23,251 bases of DNA, taken from IMG/VR virus record IMGVR_UViG_3300035670_001276, positions 1-23,251 of that record; one strand, given 5' to 3'. Below are positions 1,633-21,996 of this stretch, in pieces (the stretch's first letter is position 1; every line of letters starts with the position of its first letter). The notes below the pieces were generated by a model. That model saw only the letters and a program-made list of their open reading frames with translations, was not told the DNA's origin and searched no databases. This DNA comes from a virus. Made by a program: the position numbers and the translations under genes.

Positions 1633-1661
1633 AGTATAACAGTGTTCCGATTATTCGTCAA
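1633..1661 (-). promoter_or_regulatory. Promoter, cassette family B copy 2
   Basis: TTGACG (1661-1656), 17 nt, TATACT (1638-1633), with the leader shared with 707-735. The -35 overlaps the stop codon of the RNA ligase gene. Confidence 0.85.
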
Positions 1662-2737
1662 CCATCGTTCTTAATAAGCCACCGGTTAGAAATAGTCTTA
1701 AAACTAGGTCCACCAAAAGTATTGCACTTGAACACCAGACCTTCACGGTTGGTCTTAGGATTCAGTGTGCTAACACCATCAGCCATAGTCAACAAGCCAG
1801 TAACCCATTCTTCAATCACCATTTCAGTGGCAAGCACAGGAACATGCTTGATACCGTGGGTTTCTGCAAACACCCGACGCTCAAGAGGACCAAGGTATTC
1901 TCCACGATCAATGTCGTAGATGTCAAACAATCGGAAATCTTGACCCTTGACGTTGTAGGCATTGCCTTGAATACCTTCGCCAATCAACTCACCTTGTAGG
2001 GCAAGATTACGACCAGTTTGACGGACCTTTTCAATCAACCGTTCACGCCGAGCCACAGACCACAGAGTATTCCCAGCAGTTTCCTTGAGTGCCCAATTAC
2101 GGCTGCAGACACCTTCACGATCACCATGAACGAACACAGTCATAGAACTGCCATCCAACTTCTCGGTGACTTCCCAAGTAAAGGCACTGTTACTTTGCCA
2201 AGTCTTGAGTTCTTCAGTGAGATTCTGGATACGCTCCTGATCAGTCTTTGGGATCACAGTAGGAAATACGCCTTCTACATCACCAGCCAGTTGAGCAGGG
2301 ATAGGAGCCTCCCACTTTTGAATACCGAGGATTTCAGTGAGGTCTTCGCCACCAACGAACTTTGGAGCAAAGTTTCCCTCTTCAGAACTCCACACAAGAT
2401 TAGCCACCTCCCACTCTGTGAGAATTGTTTCATTAATGGGCAACAGCAGTCCTTGACTGACCTGGCCCCTCAACTTGACCGTGCGAAGACGTTCACCCTT
2501 GACACCGTTGTATTCCCGGGGTTCTTGACCCTTGCTGAGGAATGGGGCAACAGCATGAGGAACCCAACTATCGATAGAAACATAAACACAAAGATCGCCA
2601 GTATTATAGGCGTTCTTCTTGTCTACCACCCACCAACCACCAACACGATAAGCACAAATAGCATCTGCGTTTGGAATTTCGGTCACTTCATCAATTTTAG
2701 CCACCCATGCCATGCAACGCTCGCCATTCTTGTACAT
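1658..2737 (-). CDS. RNA ligase, DRB0094/Rnl5-like
   Basis: A 359-aa ATP-dependent nucleotidyltransferase. The N-terminal ~130 residues look like the OB-fold module of the Deinococcus DRB0094 (Rnl5) group, including VKLRGQVSQGLLLP near 87-100. The catalytic domain has motif I EKLDGSS with the predicted adenylated Lys near residue 193, motif IIIa around LQGELIGEG, motif IV EGLVFK near 340 and a motif V-like FKTISNRWLIK at the end. Family members seal nicks with 3'-OH and 5'-phosphate in RNA. The start at 2737 follows AAGGAG, and the promoter at 2771-2799 drives it. In this genome it may repair cleaved tRNAs or join RNA pieces. The exact substrate is inferred. Confidence 0.88.
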   Translation of the reverse strand: MYKNGERCMAWVAKIDEVTEIPNADAICAYRVGGWWVVDKKNAYNTGDLCVYVSIDSWVPHAVAPFLSKGQEPREYNGVKGERLRTVKLRGQVSQGLLLPINETILTEWEVANLVWSSEEGNFAPKFVGGEDLTEILGIQKWEAPIPAQLAGDVEGVFPTVIPKTDQERIQNLTEELKTWQSNSAFTWEVTEKLDGSSMTVFVHGDREGVCSRNWALKETAGNTLWSVARRERLIEKVRQTGRNLALQGELIGEGIQGNAYNVKGQDFRLFDIYDIDRGEYLGPLERRVFAETHGIKHVPVLATEMVIEEWVTGLLTMADGVSTLNPKTNREGLVFKCNTFGGPSFKTISNRWLIKNDG

Positions 2738-6016: not shown

Positions 6017-6747
6017 TTTGGTTCCATCCATAACCAATATCCTACTTCTGGTCTACCCTCGTGAATCAAAGCGAATTTATCACTGTCACTGAGTTTTTTC
6101 AAAAATTCAAACTTATATGGATCTTTGGTACTTTGTTCTATAACAGCAACATCATGGCTAGATTGAAATTCAAAAGATAATTTAGACGTTATATTTGGTT
6201 TAAAAACATCGTGGGTTTCAACTAAGATCATACAATCCGTTAATCTAGGACATTGTTCTTTATTAAGTAGATCTTCTTCATATCCCTCACAGTCAATAAC
6301 CAATAATGGCCGTTTGTAATTGGCTAATATATCATTTAACTGTGACGATGTAATCTCAGATAAAAAATAATCTATTTCTGTATTATTAGATATTGCGTTA
6401 ATTTTACAAATTTCCAATGCTCTAGGATCTATATCTACTGCAATAACTGGAGTTTGCATCATTTTTTTACAGCCTATAGCATAGTATCCTTCTGCACAGC
6501 CTACATTTATCACAACATCAGGTTGAAATTTTTTCGCTCGATACAGATATTGATGTAATTCATCCTCATATACTCCTAGCAACTTAGATACTATATCACT
6601 GTCGCCCCACATATAATATGGACATATTATCATGTCCCTGAATGGACCCAGATATACTTTACCACCAGTGTGGTGATATATGTAGGGTATTAGTTCTTTT
6701 CTTCTAGCCGTGGAAACATCTTGACAAAATCTTTGAAGGTTTTTCAT
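6013..6747 (-). CDS. SAM-dependent methyltransferase (FkbM-like)
   Basis: A 244-aa class I methyltransferase. Motif I VVINVGCAEGYYAIG lies near 78-92, the acidic SAM-ribose loop VDIDPRA follows, and LLVIDCEGYEEDLL matches the conserved C-terminal motif of FkbM-type enzymes. The start at 6747 overlaps the nadE stop as ATGA, indicating translational coupling. Its partner is the downstream glycosyltransferase-like gene, so glycan O-methylation is a reasonable guess. Confidence 0.75.
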   Translation of the reverse strand: MKNLQRFCQDVSTARRKELIPYIYHHTGGKVYLGPFRDMIICPYYMWGDSDIVSKLLGVYEDELHQYLYRAKKFQPDVVINVGCAEGYYAIGCKKMMQTPVIAVDIDPRALEICKINAISNNTEIDYFLSEITSSQLNDILANYKRPLLVIDCEGYEEDLLNKEQCPRLTDCMILVETHDVFKPNITSKLSFEFQSSHDVAVIEQSTKDPYKFEFLKKLSDSDKFALIHEGRPEVGYWLWMEPK

Positions 6748-7806: not shown

Positions 7807-8274
7807 TTAAGTAAACCAAATTTCTTTAAAACCTTCTGCCTCAGTAGGCATTTCAAAATGATCAATCATACTAGAAACAACATGATCGGGAATGTTCTTT
7901 CCAGGACGATTATGCAATCTACGCATAAGTTCTTCATGTTCTGGAGTCCTGAACACCACTGCAATGTGATAATAGTCAGGCAACATATTGAATTTTTTCT
8001 TACGACTTTTTACATTTACAGAAGTTTGATCCCAGATAATATCACGTCCCACTTTACGAGCGGCAATTACTTCCTTACACATCAAATCTACAGCAGTAGG
8101 CATGAAATCTACAAACACTTCATTATAGGTTTTCCCTACTTCAGCCGCATGGCGTTCAACAAAGTCATCAGTGCTTACGATTACGCAGTCACTGATCCAG
8201 TCCTGAGACTTAATCCAGGTACTTTTACCAGACGCAGGAACACCGATTAATTGATAACATTTAGGCACGTTCAT
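7807..8274 (-). CDS. Polynucleotide kinase-type P-loop kinase
   Basis: A 155-aa kinase of the T4 Pnkp 5'-kinase type. Walker A GVPASGKS is at 11-18, STDDF (Asp 36/37, candidate general base) follows, and IWDQTSVNVKSRKKK plus RRLHNRPGK supply the Arg-rich lid. No phosphatase domain is fused. The ATG at 8274 lies inside the end of the Cys-phosphatase gene (14-nt overlap) after GAGAG, so the two are translationally coupled. 5'-phosphorylation of broken RNA would prepare ends for the RNA ligase at 1658-2737. The substrate is inferred from family and context. Confidence 0.82.
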   Translation of the reverse strand: MNVPKCYQLIGVPASGKSTWIKSQDWISDCVIVSTDDFVERHAAEVGKTYNEVFVDFMPTAVDLMCKEVIAARKVGRDIIWDQTSVNVKSRKKKFNMLPDYYHIAVVFRTPEHEELMRRLHNRPGKNIPDHVVSSMIDHFEMPTEAEGFKEIWFT

Positions 8275-8785
8275 CTCTCTCTTTTTGAATCATTATACCC
8301 ATTTTTGTTTTATCCGTCAACTTACCATTGATCATCATAGGTTCTTTACTTTTGTGAGGCATGTCTAGTGCTTTTAACAGTTTTTTCTTTACCAGTCGAT
8401 TAGGACATCTAAATGTTTCAGTGTCCTCAAACCCTAATTGAATTCCAACTTCTGCTACAGCACCACTACGAAAGATCCCAGCATAACAGTGTACCACAAC
8501 ATTCATATGACTTTCTAGTGCATGTACCAGCAATTTTGATATTTTCACCGCATCTACATCCGTAATAGCAAATTCGCCAAGATCGGTCATACTACCATCA
8601 CCCATGTTAGTCAGACCATCGTCTTCAATATCAAGGAATTCAAATTGATAAACTTCCTTGAACTTATGAATAGGTGTTGGGAATCCTTCGCCTGGATCCA
8701 TGATTTGAATCAGCATAGAATTAGGGCCAGGATCACGATGTCTGCCATCTGCTATATCTATTTTACTTACATTCTGTATCCACAT
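8261..8785 (-). CDS. Cysteine-dependent dual-specificity-type phosphatase
   Basis: A 174-aa protein with the CX5R signature VVHCYAGIFRSG: Cys100 and Arg106, with the P-loop Ser. An Asp in the preceding DLGEF/ITDVD region could be the general acid. Some enzymes of this fold act on RNA 5' phosphates (baculovirus BVP, PIR1). Coupling with a polynucleotide kinase and position behind a Ro-like gene suggest an RNA-end role, but a protein substrate is not excluded. The start at 8785 lacks a strong Shine-Dalgarno. Confidence 0.75.
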   Translation of the reverse strand: MWIQNVSKIDIADGRHRDPGPNSMLIQIMDPGEGFPTPIHKFKEVYQFEFLDIEDDGLTNMGDGSMTDLGEFAITDVDAVKISKLLVHALESHMNVVVHCYAGIFRSGAVAEVGIQLGFEDTETFRCPNRLVKKKLLKALDMPHKSKEPMMINGKLTDKTKMGIMIQKERDERA

Positions 8786-8847: not shown

Positions 8848-10263
8848 TTAACAAGCATATCGGTCGGACATCACAGTCTTTAGAAGAATTCCAAAAGGAG
8901 TAAACTCCGCAGGATCAGCCTTCAACAAACTGGTCATGATACTTGGGCTAAACCCACTTACCAACGCCGCACCACTCTTGTCACTCTTAACAGGGACATT
9001 GTCCGAACTGTTAAGGTTCCAGAATACCACAGATGGCAATTCATACCCAGCAGCACGATACTTACGTTCGATCATCTCCATAGCACTGTCATCATGACGA
9101 ACACACTGATTGAACTGCATGTCCGAAAGAATCAACAGCATCTTTGGCATATCGCCTTGAGGAACATTGTTCTTCACTGCGGTGCTTAGGATCTTGTCAA
9201 AAGCAGCATGTAGGTTAGTACTCATACCCCACGAACTCTTGATCATTTGGTGAGCCTTCTGAACAACATTTCCCTTGAGGGTCAACAGTTCAGGACGATC
9301 ACTAAATGTCAAGAATGTACCATTGAAGGCACCCTTGTTCTTATCAGCCAAGTACAGACCAAGCGAAACACTAACGTCCAAACAAGTTACACTAGTGTTC
9401 TTCCCTGCTGGACAAACCATAGACCCACTTACATCAACTAGAGGCATGATGTTAGCATCACCAACATAGTTAGGCAATGCATCCCATTGTGCCACGATAT
9501 GGTCCAACTCAGTCTTGTTGAGATTAGTTGTTCCATATGCTCCAATCACACCCTTAAGAATGTCATGCGGGAAGATTGCTCCAGCATTTACCTTAACGGT
9601 AGGATCACCCTTGACCAACTTAGCCACATACTCCGCAAACTTTGGAGTATGACGGTTAAAAGCCTTCTTGTAGATACGAGAAGCCTGACTAGGTACATGA
9701 CTAAAGTTGATATTATCCCAATCGTTAGCACACATTTGTGATTCAACGACAGAGGTCAACCCAACAAGAGTCTTACGGTACTGCTTAGGAGTCATACCAA
9801 AGAAGTTGCGGATTTCAGACGCAACTGGTCCCTTGCGAGGAGTCCACTTTGCTGCCAGTCCGTTCTTTGCCTGGATATGTTCACCCAACAGAGTGAAGGC
9901 ACGATTCTTCATATCCTTGGTCTTGAAGACGAACAAGTCATCAAAACGACCAAGTTCAGGAACACGATTCATCAGCCGTGCTGCGGCAGAAGGATCAGTG
10001 GACTCTAGATGGGTTAGGATATCACGGAAGATCTGACGTTCGCCAGCGCCTTCCCTTACATCACGTGCCCATAGTGCGATACGTAGAGCAAGATCACGAT
10101 CTTGCACATACGCAGCGGTGAACGCTGGGATAACGTTCTTTCCGCGGCTTGCGCCTACATTGTAGAAAAAATCTACCAGTGCATTGCTGGTAGTCTTACG
10201 AGCCTTCATACCGTTAGCGGTACGTGCTTCTTGCTCTTGAATTGCGTTTACAAATGCGTTCAT
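8848..10263 (-). CDS. Ro60/TROVE-like (DUF2828-type) vWA RNA-binding protein
   Basis: A 471-aa protein. The N-terminal ~265 residues are all-helical, with DLALRIALWARDVREGAGERQIFRDIL near 57-82, a signature I associate with DUF2828, a family I regard as Ro60/TROVE-like. The C-terminal von Willebrand A domain has a MIDAS: DVSGS at 277-281, a Thr in STNLHAAFD and Asp in LILSDMQF. Ro proteins bind Y RNAs and misfolded RNAs on a helical ring closed by the vWA domain. Directly upstream are a strong promoter and two structured RNAs (10342-10468 and 10280-10331) sharing ends with six more elements in the tRNA array, the usual layout of bacterial Ro-Y loci. The DUF2828-to-TROVE link rests on memory and should be tested by profile search. 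No strong Shine-Dalgarno precedes the ATG. Confidence 0.78.
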   Translation of the reverse strand: MNAFVNAIQEQEARTANGMKARKTTSNALVDFFYNVGASRGKNVIPAFTAAYVQDRDLALRIALWARDVREGAGERQIFRDILTHLESTDPSAAARLMNRVPELGRFDDLFVFKTKDMKNRAFTLLGEHIQAKNGLAAKWTPRKGPVASEIRNFFGMTPKQYRKTLVGLTSVVESQMCANDWDNINFSHVPSQASRIYKKAFNRHTPKFAEYVAKLVKGDPTVKVNAGAIFPHDILKGVIGAYGTTNLNKTELDHIVAQWDALPNYVGDANIMPLVDVSGSMVCPAGKNTSVTCLDVSVSLGLYLADKNKGAFNGTFLTFSDRPELLTLKGNVVQKAHQMIKSSWGMSTNLHAAFDKILSTAVKNNVPQGDMPKMLLILSDMQFNQCVRHDDSAMEMIERKYRAAGYELPSVVFWNLNSSDNVPVKSDKSGAALVSGFSPSIMTSLLKADPAEFTPFGILLKTVMSDRYAC

Positions 10264-10279: not shown

Positions 10280-10331
10280 TGAATGCGTTTTTTTCGATAT
10301 ACTTGAAAATTTATGTTGCTGTGAGCATTCT
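10280..10331 (-). ncRNA. Y-like family element F, in the Ro-like gene leader
   Basis: The element starts AGAATGC then TCACAGCAAC, matching the family consensus TAGRATRCTNACAGCAA. The 3' strand GCATTC restores six of the seven pairs. Inside, TTTTC pairs with GAAAA around a 9-nt loop that is not a canonical anticodon loop. It ends about 16 nt before the Ro-like start codon and could also act as a leader structure in that mRNA, allowing autoregulation by the protein. Confidence 0.7.
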
Positions 10332-10341
10332 AATGTAAAAC

Positions 10342-10468
10342 AGGTTAGTTGTCTACTTCTTTGTTTACAGTGAGAAATTAGAAACTCACCTCGTCCAAGA
10401 GTCGGGAGTTTGATGTCCCGACCTTCCCTAGACCACCTTAGTATTAAATGTGTTGCTGTGCCTAACCT
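10342..10468 (-). ncRNA. Y-like family element G (candidate Y RNA)
   Basis: The 127-nt RNA begins at the predicted transcription start. AGGTTAG (10468-10462) pairs with CTAACCT (10348-10342). GCACAGCAACA follows on the 5' side as in all family members. The interior folds into a long hairpin, GTCTAGGG + GTCGGGA closed by CATCAAAC, then TCCCGAC + TCTTGGAC, and a second hairpin GTGAG/CTCAC. The terminal helix differs at three positions from the array members yet still pairs fully. A competing pairing GAGAAATTA/TAATTTCTC exists. It resembles a dedicated Y RNA next to a Ro gene. Confidence 0.75.
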
Positions 10469-15381: not shown

Positions 15382-15471
15382 TGGCGGAGGATAACAGAAT
15401 CGAACTGTCGGCCCTATTTAGGTGCCGGTACGGTATTCAAAGCCGCTTATTCACCATGAATACTATCCTCC
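15382..15471 (-). tRNA. tRNA-Ser(TGA)
   Basis: Acceptor GGAGGAT/ATCCTCC, G73, CCA encoded. The anticodon loop TTTGAAT reads TGA, and a long variable arm is present as expected for Ser. Confidence 0.9.
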
Positions 15472-15731: not shown

Positions 15732-15806
15732 TGGTGCCTAGTGCTGGGATCGAACCAGCGGCCAACGCCTTATCAAGACGCTGCTCTACCTCTGAGCTAA
15801 CCAGGC
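15732..15806 (-). tRNA. tRNA-Ile(GAT)
   Basis: Acceptor GCCTGGT/ACTAGGC, D-arm GCTC/GAGC, anticodon arm GCGTC-TTGATAA-GGCGT, A73 and encoded CCA. The permuted element at 17047-17159 duplicates this anticodon. Confidence 0.94.
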
Positions 15807-15809
15807 TTT

Positions 15810-15953
15810 AATCTAATATATTCTAACACCTAGTGAACCAGAATGAGAATCAAGAAGTAGGGTTCAAACTACCGCCCAATTATTACCACGGGGTTTCTGC
15901 TTTGCTCCGCAGTCCCGCGCAGTCATTCTCTAAGTGTCAGAATATATTAGATT
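15810..15953 (-). ncRNA. 144-nt structured RNA filling a tRNA spacer
   Basis: The ends form a 24-bp helix with two mismatches (15953-15930 with 15833-15810), then a 7-bp helix AGAATGA/TCATTCT with GGTTCA bulged on the 3' side. The interior holds GCGGG...CCCCGT enclosing ACTGC-GGAGCAAA-GCAG, and a GTAG-TTTGAACC-CTAC hairpin. It starts right after the CCA of the Met tRNA and ends 3 nt before the Ile tRNA, so tRNA processing would release it intact. It has no match I recognise, and the family motif ACAGCAA is absent. Confidence 0.7.
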
Positions 15954-17046: not shown

Positions 17047-17159
17047 AGGATACATTTTTAGTGCTCTACCAATTGAGCTAATTACCCATACGGATAACAC
17101 AGGATTCGAACCTGCAACCACTCCTTTATCAGAGGAAAAAGTTTTGCTGTGAGTATCCT
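17047..17159 (-). ncRNA. Y-like family element A: permuted, closed tRNA-Ile(GAT) mimic
   Basis: AGGATAC (17159-17153) pairs with GTATCCT (17053-17047) and TCACAGCAAAAC follows the 5' strand. Then come, in order: anticodon arm TTCCT-CTGATAA-AGGAG (GAT), variable TGGTT, T-arm GCAGG-TTCGAAT-CCTGT, acceptor 3' strand GTTATCC, loop GTAT, acceptor 5' strand GGGTAAT, TA, D-arm GCTC-AATTGGTA-GAGC. All tRNA parts are present, but the 3' half precedes the 5' half and the acceptor is closed by a 4-nt loop without CCA. A normal Ile(GAT) tRNA exists at 15732-15806. This could be a non-chargeable mimic or a permuted precursor. Confidence 0.88.
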
Positions 17160-17165
17160 AAACTT

Positions 17166-17239
17166 TGGATCCGGTGGAGGGAATCGGACCCCCGTCTCGA
17201 ATTTTGGAGATTCTTATAATGCCATTATACTACACCGGA
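17166..17239 (-). tRNA. tRNA-Trp(CCA)
   Basis: Acceptor TCCGGTG/CACCGGA, anticodon loop CTCCAAA (CCA), T-loop TCCGATT, encoded CCA. Position 73 is T rather than the usual G of bacterial tRNA-Trp. Confidence 0.88.
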
Positions 17240-17254
17240 ACTGAATTTTTCAAC

Positions 17255-17372
17255 AGGATGCATTTACTTTTTGCCGGACATGCTATCCATTACACCAACT
17301 CATTACTGAGTCAAGGAATCGAACCTCATCCTTCTGGTTTTCACCGTAAATTAAAATTGCTGTTAGCATCCT
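17255..17372 (-). ncRNA. Y-like family element B: permuted, closed tRNA mimic (Phe-like)
   Basis: AGGATGC (17372-17366) pairs with GCATCCT (17261-17255); TAACAGCAA follows. An inner helix ATTTAC/GTAAAT abuts it. Then come GGTGAAAACC (GAA anticodon if U33 is as read, but the stem is short), T-arm TGAGG-TTCGATT-CCTTG, ACTCA-GTAA-TGAGT as a closed acceptor-like hairpin, and D-arm GTGT-AATGGATA-GCAT. The order is permuted as in element A and the closing GTAA loop has the GNRA form. No CCA is encoded. The anticodon assignment is tentative. Confidence 0.82.
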
Positions 17373-17583: not shown

Positions 17584-17644
17584 AGGATACATTTTTACTG
17601 GTTAGATTACAAGTCTAGTGTATAAAATTTGCTGTTAGTATCCT
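17584..17644 (-). ncRNA. Y-like family element with Thr(TGT) anticodon arm only
   Basis: AGGATAC (17644-17638) pairs with GTATCCT (17590-17584). TAACAGCAA follows, then an A/T-rich inner helix ATTTTA/TAAAAAT with one bulge. The apex is CTAGA-CTTGTAA-TCTAA, a canonical anticodon loop (C32, U33, UGU, A37, A38) with four pairs. D-arm, T-arm and CCA are absent. It lies 5 nt after the CCA of tRNA-Leu(TAA). A normal Thr(TGT) tRNA exists at 18691. Confidence 0.85.
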
Positions 17645-17750: not shown

Positions 17751-18398
17751 TTATACAGACAATTTCTTATCTGTCAACACTTTTTTGTCTTCTTTTATCT
17801 TTTCTACCAACCTACGTTTTACCATATTCTTCAACCCTGGTTCACACGCTAGTGCTTCCGGTACTAACCGATTTCGTACTCGACTACGAAGACTAAAATC
17901 AACATCATGATTGCCTGGATCTTCCCACCAAGACAAACCACGATATCTACAATATTCTTCTAATTTACACTTATCAGTCAACAGAAATGGACGAAACACA
18001 TTGCGATTACGATGTGGCATATATTCACCACGACCACGCAAACAAGTCATCAAATACCATTCCACCGCATCGTCAAGTGTATGCCCAGTAGCAACAGCAG
18101 TATCAAAACTGTGAAACCAACTATACCTAGCATCTCGCCATTTTTCTTCTTTGTTGCCATGATCTTGCTCTCCAGTTTGATAACTGGTGATCAAACGAAC
18201 ACCTAACGTGTTAGAAAGTTCTACGACAGTATCTAACTCATATTTATGAGCATGATCCGCATGACTGAAATGCAACAGTGTTACCGTACGCCATTCACTA
18301 AGAACGGCGGCTGTAGCAACACTATCAACACCACCACTACATGCAACATATAGTGTTTCAGGTACTGATTCTGTGTATGTCCAAGTATAGCGTTTCAT
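17751..18398 (-). CDS. tilS: tRNA(Ile)-lysidine synthase (short form)
   Basis: A 215-aa PP-loop enzyme. SGGVDS at 21-26 binds ATP, ATGHTLDDAVEWYLM matches the conserved GH-x-x-DD block, and WWEDPGNHDVDFSLRSRVRNRLVPEAL is the characteristic TilS motif. It converts C34 of CAU-anticodon tRNA-Ile to lysidine so that it reads AUA. The C-terminal tRNA-recognition domains of long TilS proteins are missing, as in shorter family members. It starts 10 nt after a CAT tRNA (18409-18486) and lies inside the tRNA array, which contains four CAT tRNAs. No Shine-Dalgarno is visible. Confidence 0.93.
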   Translation of the reverse strand: MKRYTWTYTESVPETLYVACSGGVDSVATAAVLSEWRTVTLLHFSHADHAHKYELDTVVELSNTLGVRLITSYQTGEQDHGNKEEKWRDARYSWFHSFDTAVATGHTLDDAVEWYLMTCLRGRGEYMPHRNRNVFRPFLLTDKCKLEEYCRYRGLSWWEDPGNHDVDFSLRSRVRNRLVPEALACEPGLKNMVKRRLVEKIKEDKKVLTDKKLSV

Positions 18399-18630: not shown

Positions 18631-18685
18631 AGAATACTTTAGGAGTTGAACCTATTTAATCCAAGGGTTTTGCTGTAAGTATTCT
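18631..18685 (-). ncRNA. Y-like family element with a T-arm-like hairpin only
   Basis: AGAATACTT (18685-18677) pairs over 9 bp with AAGTATTCT (18639-18631); ACAGCAA follows. The apex contains TAGG-TTCAACT-CCTA, whose loop fits the TTCRANY consensus of a T-loop. I could not fit a canonical anticodon arm or D-arm. It lies 5 nt after the CCA of tRNA-Thr(TGT). Confidence 0.78.
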
Positions 18686-18874: not shown

Positions 18875-18936
18875 AGAATGCATTATTACTTAGTCAAATT
18901 AGCAGTTTGATGTAAAATTTTTGCTGTTAGCATTCT
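18875..18936 (-). ncRNA. Y-like family element with Ser(GCT) anticodon arm only
   Basis: AGAATGC (18936-18930) pairs with GCATTCT (18881-18875). TAACAGCAA follows, then an inner helix ATTTTAC/GTAATAAT with one bulge. The apex is TCAAA-CTGCTAA-TTTGA, a perfect 5-bp anticodon arm with C32, U33, GCU, A37, A38. There is no D-arm, T-arm or CCA. It lies just upstream, in transcription order, of the normal tRNA-Ser(GCT). Confidence 0.87.
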
Positions 18937-19615: not shown

Positions 19616-19618
19616 CGT

Positions 19619-19861
19619 GATAATTAGTAGTGTTGTCATGTTATGGACAATAATAACCCTATTGTCGTTTGCTTTTAACGATGTCAACTTATACAAGGGC
19701 ACCGGCCGATGCTGATCTTGTTTTCGTTACGAACATACAGGCATGACCCATATACTCTGACATCAACTTTTCCGCATCTTAAGGTCGACGTCCGACACGG
19801 ATAAGAAAGTGCATTAGCCTGGTGAACACAGGCTTTTTCCATAACAACACTACTAATTATC
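19619..19861 (-). ncRNA. 243-nt structured RNA with an 18-bp terminal helix
   Basis: The first and last 18 nt (19861-19844 and 19636-19619) are perfectly complementary, and TTATGG/CCATAA extends the helix after a 4-nt bulge. Inside are clear hairpins, GACAATA-GGGTTAT-TATTGTC and TCGTT-AAAAGC-AAACGA, and GC-rich segments that should form a multibranched core. No convincing ORF exists. A consensus promoter starts just upstream, and tRNA-Val begins 4 nt after the end. It does not show RNase P, group I or 6S hallmarks that I can see. Confidence 0.72.
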
Positions 19862-19880
19862 AACTGTTTTAAAGAACTGA

Positions 19881-20050: not shown

Positions 20051-20081
20051 TTGGCTGCTTAGTCTAGCATTTTACACAGAA

Positions 20082-20168
20082 CCATATAAAAACACACTAC
20101 AAGGTTCACGATACCTGCGCAGGGATTTAACGTTTTACCTGACAATTTAGTAATGTGTTTTTATATGG
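20082..20168 (-). ncRNA. 87-nt hairpin RNA pairing with the CCA of tRNA-Leu(CAA)
   Basis: A 19-bp helix with one G-T pair (20168-20150 with 20100-20082) encloses about 49 nt containing CCTGCGCAGG. The 5' strand begins with the encoded CCA of the preceding tRNA, so the hairpin would sequester that 3' end in the precursor. A processing signal or a separate small RNA are both possible. Confidence 0.62.
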
Positions 20169-20245
20169 TGCCCCGGGTGGGATTCGAACCCACAAAATTC
20201 GGATTTTGAATCCGACACGTATACCGATTCCATCACCAGGGCAAA
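20166..20245 (-). tRNA. tRNA-Leu(CAA)
   Basis: Acceptor GCCCTGG opposite CCGGGGC, anticodon arm TCGGA-TTCAAAA-TCCGA (CAA), long variable arm, T-loop TTCGAAT, A73 and encoded CCA. The exact 5' end may differ by a base. Confidence 0.9.
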
Positions 20246-20788: not shown

Positions 20789-20811
20789 ACTGATATTTAT
20801 CATCGTTTGCA

Positions 20812-20837
20812 AAAATAGGTTCCGAAGAACCTATTTT
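20812..20837 (-). terminator. Terminator of the tmRNA gene
   Basis: AAAATAGGTTC-TTCG-GAACCTATTTT followed by TGC, an 11-bp stem with a UUCG loop. Confidence 0.92.
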
Positions 20838-21172
20838 GGTGTGTTTGGTTACAAGGCCTTTCCTACCCCGGCTCTGCTAGTTGTTTAGGCTGCTAGAGCG
20901 TATGCGCTGTCGTTTGCATTTACGTTTTTTGCTTCTTCAACCGGGTTACCCCAATCCTACGGCTTAGGCATTGCCGTGCTGTCCACTCTGTTTCCTCACG
21001 CAATCGAAACCATGACCGACCCATTAGTAAGCATACTCTAGAGGATAACCTTCCCTCTGAGTCTTTTGTGGATTGGCTACCACAGGGCACCGACAAATAT
21101 GCTTACTGGTGGATCGGAGGGGAGTCGAACCCCTGTCTTGCCTGCATCTACGTTGCTTCATACAGCAATAAA
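20838..21172 (-). ncRNA. ssrA: Circularly permuted (two-piece) tmRNA
   Basis: In transcript order the tRNA 3' half comes first: T-arm around TTCGACT, acceptor CCGATCC, A, CCA (21117-21107). An intervening segment follows (21106-21023) with a 9-bp stem GTAAGCATA/TATGCTTAC. Then comes the 5' half starting GGGTCGG (21022-21016), which pairs with CCGATCC. The mRNA-like part encodes the tag ANDSAYALAA after resume codon GCA (20917), stop TAA (20885-20887). The order matches permuted two-piece tmRNAs. A stem with CTAGCAGAGC and the terminator close it. The 5' limit is approximate. tmRNA rescues stalled ribosomes and tags nascent peptides for proteolysis. Confidence 0.93.
20885..20917 (-). other. 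tmRNA tag-coding segment
   Basis: GCA resume codon to TAA encodes ANDSAYALAA. It begins AND and ends in ALAA, as in proteobacterial tags recognised by ClpXP. Confidence 0.93.
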
Positions 21173-21178
21173 ACTTAT

Positions 21179-21451
21179 TTATTCTTCCTTATACCATTCG
21201 TCCATTAATTCTGCGGCATGCCTGAACCAGATAGATAATACTTTTGCATATCGTTTGTCAATCATAATACTATTTGTGTTGTTAACATTAGTAGTACCAT
21301 GAATGATTTGCGTATCTAGTTTCATATAAATCTTGTCTGGGTTCAACTCGTTACCATCTACATGAGCCAGTGTAAAATGACCTACCATTTGATGGGAGTT
21401 TAATTCAAAAGATATTGTTTTACGGTCTTCCGATATTTTACCACTGCTCAT
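21179..21451 (-). CDS. Hypothetical 90-aa protein
   Basis: The start at 21451 follows GGAG at a 7-nt spacing. The protein begins MSSGKISEDRKTISFELNSHQ, with a beta-rich N-terminal half and a helical C-terminus rich in aromatics (IWFRHAAELMDEWYKEE). No family is recognised. Its stop is immediately before the tmRNA 3' piece, so the two may be co-transcribed. Confidence 0.75.
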   Translation of the reverse strand: MSSGKISEDRKTISFELNSHQMVGHFTLAHVDGNELNPDKIYMKLDTQIIHGTTNVNNTNSIMIDKRYAKVLSIWFRHAAELMDEWYKEE

Positions 21452-21942: not shown

Positions 21943-21996
21943 AGGATACATTTTTTTTAATTTCCAATTAATTATAAATGTTGCTGTCAGTATCCT
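21943..21996 (-). ncRNA. Y-like family element with Ser(GGA) anticodon arm only
   Basis: AGGATAC (21996-21990) pairs with GTATCCT (21949-21943); TGACAGCAAC follows. An inner helix ATTT/AAAT abuts the terminal helix. The apex TTAA-TTGGAAA-TTAA has a canonical anticodon loop (U33, GGA, A37, A38). There is no D-arm, T-arm or CCA. It lies 5 nt after the CCA of tRNA-Arg(ACG). No normal tRNA-Ser(GGA) is seen in the window. Confidence 0.83.

Follow-up and report, generated by a model that had tools for sequence, protein, structure and literature searches.

Probable Y-type RNAs of a Ro-like DUF2828 protein within a phage tRNA array

The locus and its eight elements

The window, i.e. the whole stretch of viral DNA that was analysed (23251 bases), carries on its minus strand an array of 27 tRNA genes and one tmRNA. 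Four protein-coding genes of the window are relevant to the present analysis, with the kinase-like gene positioned two genes after the Ro-like gene:

1658..2737, minus strand: RNA ligase of the DRB0094 type (TIGR02306 above cut-off, PF09414)
7807..8274, minus strand: polynucleotide-kinase-like P-loop protein (AAA_33, PHROG 505 polynucleotide kinase, partial bacter_Pnkp match)
8261..8785, minus strand: gene downstream of the DUF2828 gene, with the motif HCYAGIFRS, a Cys-phosphatase-like signature noted by sequence inspection, and no Pfam match
8848..10263, minus strand: DUF2828/DUF7788 protein with a predicted Ro60/Rsr fold, i.e. a HEAT-like ring and a vWA domain with DxSxS (Pfam, PHROG 850 RNA-binding protein, fold matches)

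In a preliminary description of this DNA, two sequences inside the tRNA array and on the same strand, here named E1 and E2, were presented as circularly permuted tRNAs whose acceptor stem is closed by a four-nucleotide loop. Both belong to a family with six more members in the window, which also holds the Ro-like gene. The pattern AGRATRC-TN-ACAGCAA (AGRATRCTNACAGCAA) occurs in seven mismatch-free copies, on the minus strand every time, and allowing up to three mismatches yields 11 matches in the window against 2.5 expected; the eighth copy is a variant at 10468 (E8). Common to all eight elements is a 7-bp terminal helix followed, on its 5′ strand, by two bases and ACAGCAA, with the complementary closing strand located 45-120 nt downstream of each motif (that of E7 having one mismatch). 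E7 and E8 lie directly upstream of the DUF2828 gene. The elements, each a candidate Y-type RNA, are as follows:

10280..10331, minus strand: E7, short element 16 bp upstream of the DUF2828 start, a position kept in relatives (pattern)
10342..10468, minus strand: E8, 127-nt element upstream of E7, AGGTTAG-GC-ACAGCAA...CTAACCT, fold z -3.6 (variant match and fold)
17047..17159, minus strand: E1, with a complete circularly permuted tRNA-Ile(GAT) fold (minimum-free-energy fold, partial Rfam YrlA match, ARAGORN)
17255..17372, minus strand: E2, with permuted T-arm, acceptor (GTAA) and D-arm and without a credible anticodon arm (fold, relatives, de-permutation)
17584..17644, minus strand: E3, short element with a lone anticodon-arm-like hairpin of 4 Watson-Crick pairs, loop CUUGUAA (TGT) (pattern and fold)
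18631..18685, minus strand: E4, short element with a provisional lone T-arm, TAGG-TTCAACT-CCTA (pattern, arm scan)
18875..18936, minus strand: E5, short element with a lone 5-bp anticodon arm, loop CUGCUAA (GCT) (pattern, fold, loop rule)
21943..21996, minus strand: E6, short element whose effector part has no assignment (pattern and fold)

The T-arm of E4 is termed provisional because it is not formed in the predicted minimum-free-energy (MFE) fold of that element.

The DUF2828 protein and its association with the elements

Ro60/TROVE proteins bind Y RNAs and the ends of misfolded RNAs. The Ro-like protein of the window matches DUF2828 and DUF7788 only and not the Pfam TROVE family (PF05731); phmmer of DUF2828 against the PDB found no Ro structure and a profile search reached only an E-value of 0.16 to TROVE entries. 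Since neither type of search gave a significant Ro match, a fold search was needed. A DUF2828 model built from 29 relatives had as its top matches exclusively Ro60/Rsr structures (Z 12.8-17.1 over approximately 400 residues), the next unrelated structure scoring Z 9.0. VIA-align gave Z 17.1 to 9kop, 14.9 to 2i91 and 13.9 to Rsr (2nvo), and Foldseek likewise placed Ro60/TROVE on top; Ro60 of Thermus phage phiLo (9l5y) was among the Ro structures matched. The residues expected of a MIDAS-type DxSxS site (D277, S279, S281, T349 and D381) are present and invariant in the 29 DUF2828 sequences, and a DUF2828 relative in mycobacteriophage LeBron is labelled Ro-like RNA-binding protein. The DUF2828 protein is thus predicted to be a helical ring with a vWA domain of the Ro60/TROVE type, an architecture shared with Ro60/Rsr, including phiLo Ro60, over about 400 residues, although at approximately 15% identity DUF2828 forms a separate sequence family. 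The family is represented in 682 of 50,697 phage records and occurs in numerous bacterial genomes as well; no TROVE protein was found in the eight bacterial DUF2828 genomes examined, and in two bacterial loci, which are two cases and not a rate, RtcB directly follows DUF2828.

The association between this protein family and the RNA elements was assessed by scanning DUF2828 loci for exact elements, defined as 7 Watson-Crick pairs, two free bases and ACAGCAA. The viral loci contained 346 such elements on the strand of the gene, distributed over 135 of 159 loci, and 3 on the opposite strand, compared with a mean of 7.6 over 105 permutations of the motif (a mean that includes ACAGCAA itself) and 38 for the next best permutation. 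The genome-assembly set (80 loci, nearly all of them bacterial and two labelled Lokiarchaeota) gave 117 elements in 50 loci against a permutation mean of 3.8. As DUF2828 loci are partly related, these locus counts do not represent independent events. The spacing between helix and motif has a sharp optimum at 2, and the helix sequence varies freely among phages with pairing kept (AGACCGT/ACGGTCT, TGAGCGC/GCGCTCA, AGGAATC/GATTCCT); pairing is a requirement of the scan, and its tie to the motif comes from the permutation control. In L433 and L480, whose contigs bear the label Candidatus Lokiarchaeota, the DUF2828 gene and its ACAGCAA elements could be of viral origin or result from a binning error.

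The association was also recovered starting from the RNA. IMG/VR was scanned for ACAGCAA followed by GGTTCGANTCC at 25-55 nt, with filtering on RNA features only, and DUF2828 proved to be encoded in 29 of the 39 contigs with full elements, as opposed to 1 of 43 for the scrambled motif ACGACAA (a set comprising contigs >20 kb only). Pattern matches lacking a perfect 7-bp helix were accompanied by DUF2828 in 17 of 40 cases, many of them resembling true elements with imperfect helices, and because such matches often carry DUF2828 the scrambled-motif scan was chosen as the control.

Phage Alf5 (KX377933), whose DUF2828 protein is Alf5_043, has three elements, at 6719, 6885 and 7426 of locus L090. 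In most viral loci one to three copies are located directly 5′ of the DUF2828 start. This position would be expected of a DNA-level repeat or a cis-regulatory site, such as an operator or an autoregulatory leader of the DUF2828 mRNA, rather than of a separate RNA. The strand bias and the covarying helix of RNA type argue against that explanation, as do the many copies found far from the gene and among tRNA genes, and we regard it as improbable, though the promoter-proximal copies may possibly serve autoregulation in addition. Based on these findings, it is very probable that the phage makes no fewer than eight non-coding RNAs of the Y type, E1 and E2 among them, for its own Ro60-like protein; we refer to these as Y-type RNAs of a DUF2828 Ro protein. 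This identity is well supported, and E1 and E2 would accordingly be members of a large and apparently undescribed set of small RNAs situated near a Ro60-like ring protein in many phages and bacteria. RNA partners are thereby assigned to the DUF2828 family, whose members are usually annotated as hypothetical or RNA-binding.

tRNA pieces carried by the elements

The MFE fold of E1 (-30.7 kcal/mol, z -2.4) contains the terminal helix, an anticodon arm of 5 bp with a 7-nt loop, the T-arm, a 7-bp acceptor with a GUAU loop and the D-arm, which is exactly the permuted order with closed acceptor that had been claimed. Its parts, in 5′ to 3′ direction of the RNA, are:

17144..17159, minus strand: helix strand AGGATAC followed by TC-ACAGCAA, 5′ side, proposed Ro-binding site (exact family-pattern match)
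17121..17137, minus strand: anticodon arm, loop CUGAUAA (GAT) (MFE fold)
17099..17115, minus strand: T-arm GCAGG-TTCGAAT-CCTGT (sequence and MFE fold)
17081..17098, minus strand: acceptor GTTATCC-[GTAT]-GGGTAAT, 7 bp with a 4-nt closing loop (fold and covariation)
17063..17078, minus strand: D-arm GCTC-AATTGGTA-GAGC (sequence and MFE fold)
17047..17053, minus strand: 3′ strand of the terminal helix, GTATCCT (pairing and fold)

When E1 was opened at the acceptor loop and rejoined, ARAGORN called tRNA-Ile(gat) in 101 of the 260 joins tried. An ordinary tRNA-Ile(GAT) is present in the same window at 15732-15806, so that E1 does duplicate an anticodon of the array as noted before, and the earlier remark on CCA also holds: those tRNAs of the array that were called by ARAGORN and inspected have an encoded CCA at their end, which E1 and E2 lack.

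E2 retained only part of its first description. Its T-arm, its acceptor with a GUAA closing loop and its D-loop containing GG were all recovered, but the tentative Phe GAA anticodon was rejected for lack of support: the supposed arm is a GAAA (GNRA) tetraloop on 3 bp in the MFE fold, it is absent from the closest relative of E2, and de-permuted E2 yielded no consistent tRNA identity with ARAGORN.

The preliminary description had offered, as one of two readings, that E1 and E2 are precursors to be cut open in the loop that closes the acceptor and then spliced. Working tRNAs arise in this manner in some algae and archaea. E1 does possess all parts of a tRNA-Ile, is called as such after rejoining and shares with permuted tRNA genes the placement of the 3′ half before the 5′ half. 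Yet the acceptor of the present family is closed by 3-9 nt, is without CCA and is not chargeable, and the 4-nt loop of E1 and E2 leaves no room for RNase P or tRNase Z ends. Relatives of E2 lack the acceptor and sister elements contain a single arm only, the array already includes its own tRNA-Ile(GAT), and a bulge-helix-bulge at the junction of D-arm and anticodon arm is not part of the E1 MFE fold, where a plain 7-bp helix and long single strands are found instead. A splicing precursor is therefore very improbable.

Across the family, the displayed piece may be a permuted tRNA in full, a T/D elbow, or a T-arm or canonical anticodon arm standing alone. For the element statistics, redundancy was removed at 70-75% identity. 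Among 43 non-redundant permuted elements, a set chosen with at least 6 of 7 acceptor pairs, each pair position is occupied by 5-6 standard pair types and the closing loop measures 3-9 nt. A fully closed acceptor (7/7 pairs) was seen in 12 of 38 protein-retrieved T-arm relatives, a set obtained via the protein without selection for T-arms, versus 23 of 1304 other T-arms of the same loci, so that closure exceeds what chance would give. In two loci (L040 and L150), relatives of E2 have lost the acceptor and kept both the T-loop and the D-loop.

With a strict rule for canonical anticodon arms (5 bp, loop CTNNNA[AC]), used since a looser count took in T-loops, 11 of 132 viral elements (0.56 expected) and 18 of 112 bacterial elements (0.17 expected) carry such an arm, i.e. 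29 observed in both sets against approximately 0.7 expected. Hairpins of 5 bp with 7-nt loops number 48 in the short elements versus 19 in shuffles, and these loops prefer C32, U33, A37 and A38; loops of 3-6, 8 and 10 nt show no excess, and loops of 9 nt are borderline, with 29 compared with a shuffle mean of 17 and maximum of 30. Lone T-arms were found in 6 short elements against 0.14 expected. The anticodons displayed are diverse and include GAT, TAT, TCT, TAA, GCA, TTT, TTC, TGA, GTT, GAA, CAT and GCT, and a relative of E3 in locus L014 has the loop CTTTTAA on 5 bp, differing from E3 in the middle anticodon base (TTT versus TGT) with the loop frame kept. A tRNA piece of either arm was recognised in 36 of 132 viral and 44 of 112 bacterial elements, a count in which some T-loops were taken for anticodon loops; in over half of the elements no tRNA piece was recognised.

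Phage tRNA arrays do recombine and the present elements lie in one, which could suggest that they are degenerate tRNA genes or array debris fallen by chance inside a repeat. This is hardly credible given that every acceptor position covaries across the 43 elements, that canonical anticodon loops are in strong excess in the short elements and that the family tracks DUF2828 even in contigs retrieved by RNA features only. As a separate observation, locus L062 (2596-2703) holds an element around an apparently non-permuted, degenerate tRNA with its own acceptor.

Relation to known Y RNAs, possible roles and other features of the array

YrlA is a bacterial Y RNA that binds both a Ro protein and PNPase and is a substrate of DusA and TruB. 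The Rfam YrlA model (RF02553) matches E1 with 36.5 bits (E 1.9e-5) against a gathering cut-off of 69 bits, the matched part being the core of T-arm, closed acceptor and D-arm. Because below-cut-off matches also occur in control genomes (7 of 14), this partial match alone constitutes weak evidence. No YrlA at cut-off was found in six phage loci, and none appeared among the best matches listed for 132 kb carrying many elements. E1 and its relatives resemble YrlA in presenting T-arm, acceptor closed by a short loop and D-arm in this order on a terminal stem, a feature which E3-E8 do not have; they further resemble it in having their ends at the anticodon side and a gene near that of a Ro protein, often in the company of RNA-repair genes. 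In contrast to YrlA, whose stem reads GGCGAAUGC../..CUUGUCGCC in real YrlA alignments, the proposed Ro stem here consists of 7 bp and NN-ACAGCAA, E1 retains an anticodon arm, sister RNAs bear a lone anticodon arm or T-arm, and the partner is DUF2828 and not a PF05731 TROVE protein. Straight membership in YrlA is ruled out by score and Ro-stem sequence, and the elements are accordingly viewed as working like YrlA without being filed as such. The other reading in the preliminary description, a non-chargeable tRNA mimic like YrlA, was right in kind in the light of the match to the E1 core and the Ro60-fold gene in the window.

The tRNA-like core is therefore already known, while the ACAGCAA/DUF2828 family and its anticodon-arm displays appear to be new: no earlier report of either was found in the literature searched, and priority is uncertain. 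A survey of jumbo phages described TROVE proteins with a tRNA-like partner (PMC7824862). For Listeria phage CKA15, the DUF2828 protein CKA15_055, which was found in purified virions, has been proposed to be Rsr-like and Y RNAs were proposed as well (PMC12282133). The latter are the hyper-transcribed CKA15_059-061, whereas the ACAGCAA elements of this phage, with three helices at about 25290-25552 of OR088597.1, lie between CKA15_056 and CKA15_055; its RNA-seq peaks were consequently ruled out as direct support for the ACAGCAA RNAs, as they have other coordinates. The reported hyper-transcribed non-coding loci (L494, 2056-2366) are situated 0.9 kb upstream of the ACAGCAA elements and are distinct from them.

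In known Y RNAs the basal stem binds Ro (PMC8394870; PMC4726728). By analogy, each element would constitute a separate RNA in which the 7-bp helix and NN-ACAGCAA form the binding site for the Ro ring, a proposal that rests on the linkage to DUF2828 because the canonical YrlA Ro stem has another sequence. The segment between the two helix strands would then act as an interchangeable display module, namely a permuted whole tRNA in E1, an elbow with closed acceptor in E2, a lone anticodon arm in E3 and E5, a lone T-arm in E4 and, in E6-E8, a module without a recognised tRNA piece. Since both chain ends would be engaged in the Ro stem, a displayed tRNA would have to be permuted with its acceptor sealed, and it could therefore not be charged. 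This arrangement offers a reason for the existence of a permuted, acceptor-sealed tRNA, and it would widen the single tRNA-like module known from Y RNAs into a whole display system, bare anticodon arms included.

In the reading favoured here, such ribonucleoproteins may hold out authentic-looking tRNA surfaces that bind and occupy tRNA-directed enzymes, the main targets possibly being host anticodon nucleases and other tRNA-targeting effectors, and these decoys would act beside the polynucleotide-kinase-like protein and RNA ligase of the phage. That the anticodons are so varied is in keeping with decoys aimed at anticodon nucleases or comparable effectors, while the many elements without a recognisable tRNA piece speak against a pure tRNA-decoy role, which does not explain them. 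We tentatively put forward a second Ro-Y RNA system of DUF2828 and ACAGCAA RNAs, in which each RNA would carry one tRNA part, isolated anticodon stem-loops of multiple specificities included. Together they would supply decoys or sensors for anticodon nucleases and other tRNA-targeting effectors in phage-host conflict; the decoy role taken by itself is a serious possibility which we hold at slightly below an even chance. The tRNA-like domain of Salmonella YrlA has been raised by Hughes et al. as a possible anticodon-nuclease inhibitor (PMC7790460), and the present system makes it testable whether Ro ribonucleoproteins with tRNA mimicry protect against such enzymes.

The same Ro-Y RNA identity is compatible with a different use of the tRNA piece. 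As a handle, it could recruit to the Ro ring an enzyme that acts on tRNAs (PNPase as in the Deinococcus RYPER, RtcB, an RNA ligase or a modification enzyme), and the ring would then be the place where damaged tRNAs or other structured RNAs undergo repair or decay. A Y RNA is known to tether PNPase to Rsr (PMC8394870; PMC7790460), RtcB adjoins DUF2828 in the two bacterial loci mentioned above, the phage encodes both a kinase-like protein and an RNA ligase, and the relatives of E2 retain the T/D elbow alone. The Salmonella rsr-yrlBA-rtcBA operon (PMC7790460) similarly unites a Ro protein, Y RNAs and an RNA ligase; the present locus differs from it in being phage-borne, in its kinase-like protein and DRB0094-type ligase, in its many RNAs within a tRNA array and in the display of anticodon arms. 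Many different anticodons would be unneeded for a single partner enzyme. Tethering fits nearly as well as decoys, we give it comparable, guarded credence, and both roles can hold together.

The tRNA array contains several other features. At 15810-15953 a 28-nt inverted repeat (89% complementary) surrounds approximately 88 nt that include a tRNA-like T-arm. This segment, which has a fold z of -6.3 and no ACAGCAA, may represent another kind of structured RNA. Two more inverted repeats, of 23 nt at 96% enclosing 199 nt (19618-19862) and of 20 nt at 95% enclosing 49 nt (20081-20169), are also located in the array. A sub-threshold tRNA-Sec-like match of 35.9 bits at 15386-15471 is probably due to a tRNA whose variable arm is long and which ARAGORN missed, and a TilS-like tRNA lysidine synthetase gene occupies 17751-18398. 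The phage-encoded tmRNA (20794-21218) matches both the permuted and the betaproteobacterial tmRNA models of Rfam, with similar tmRNAs in loci L092 and L093.
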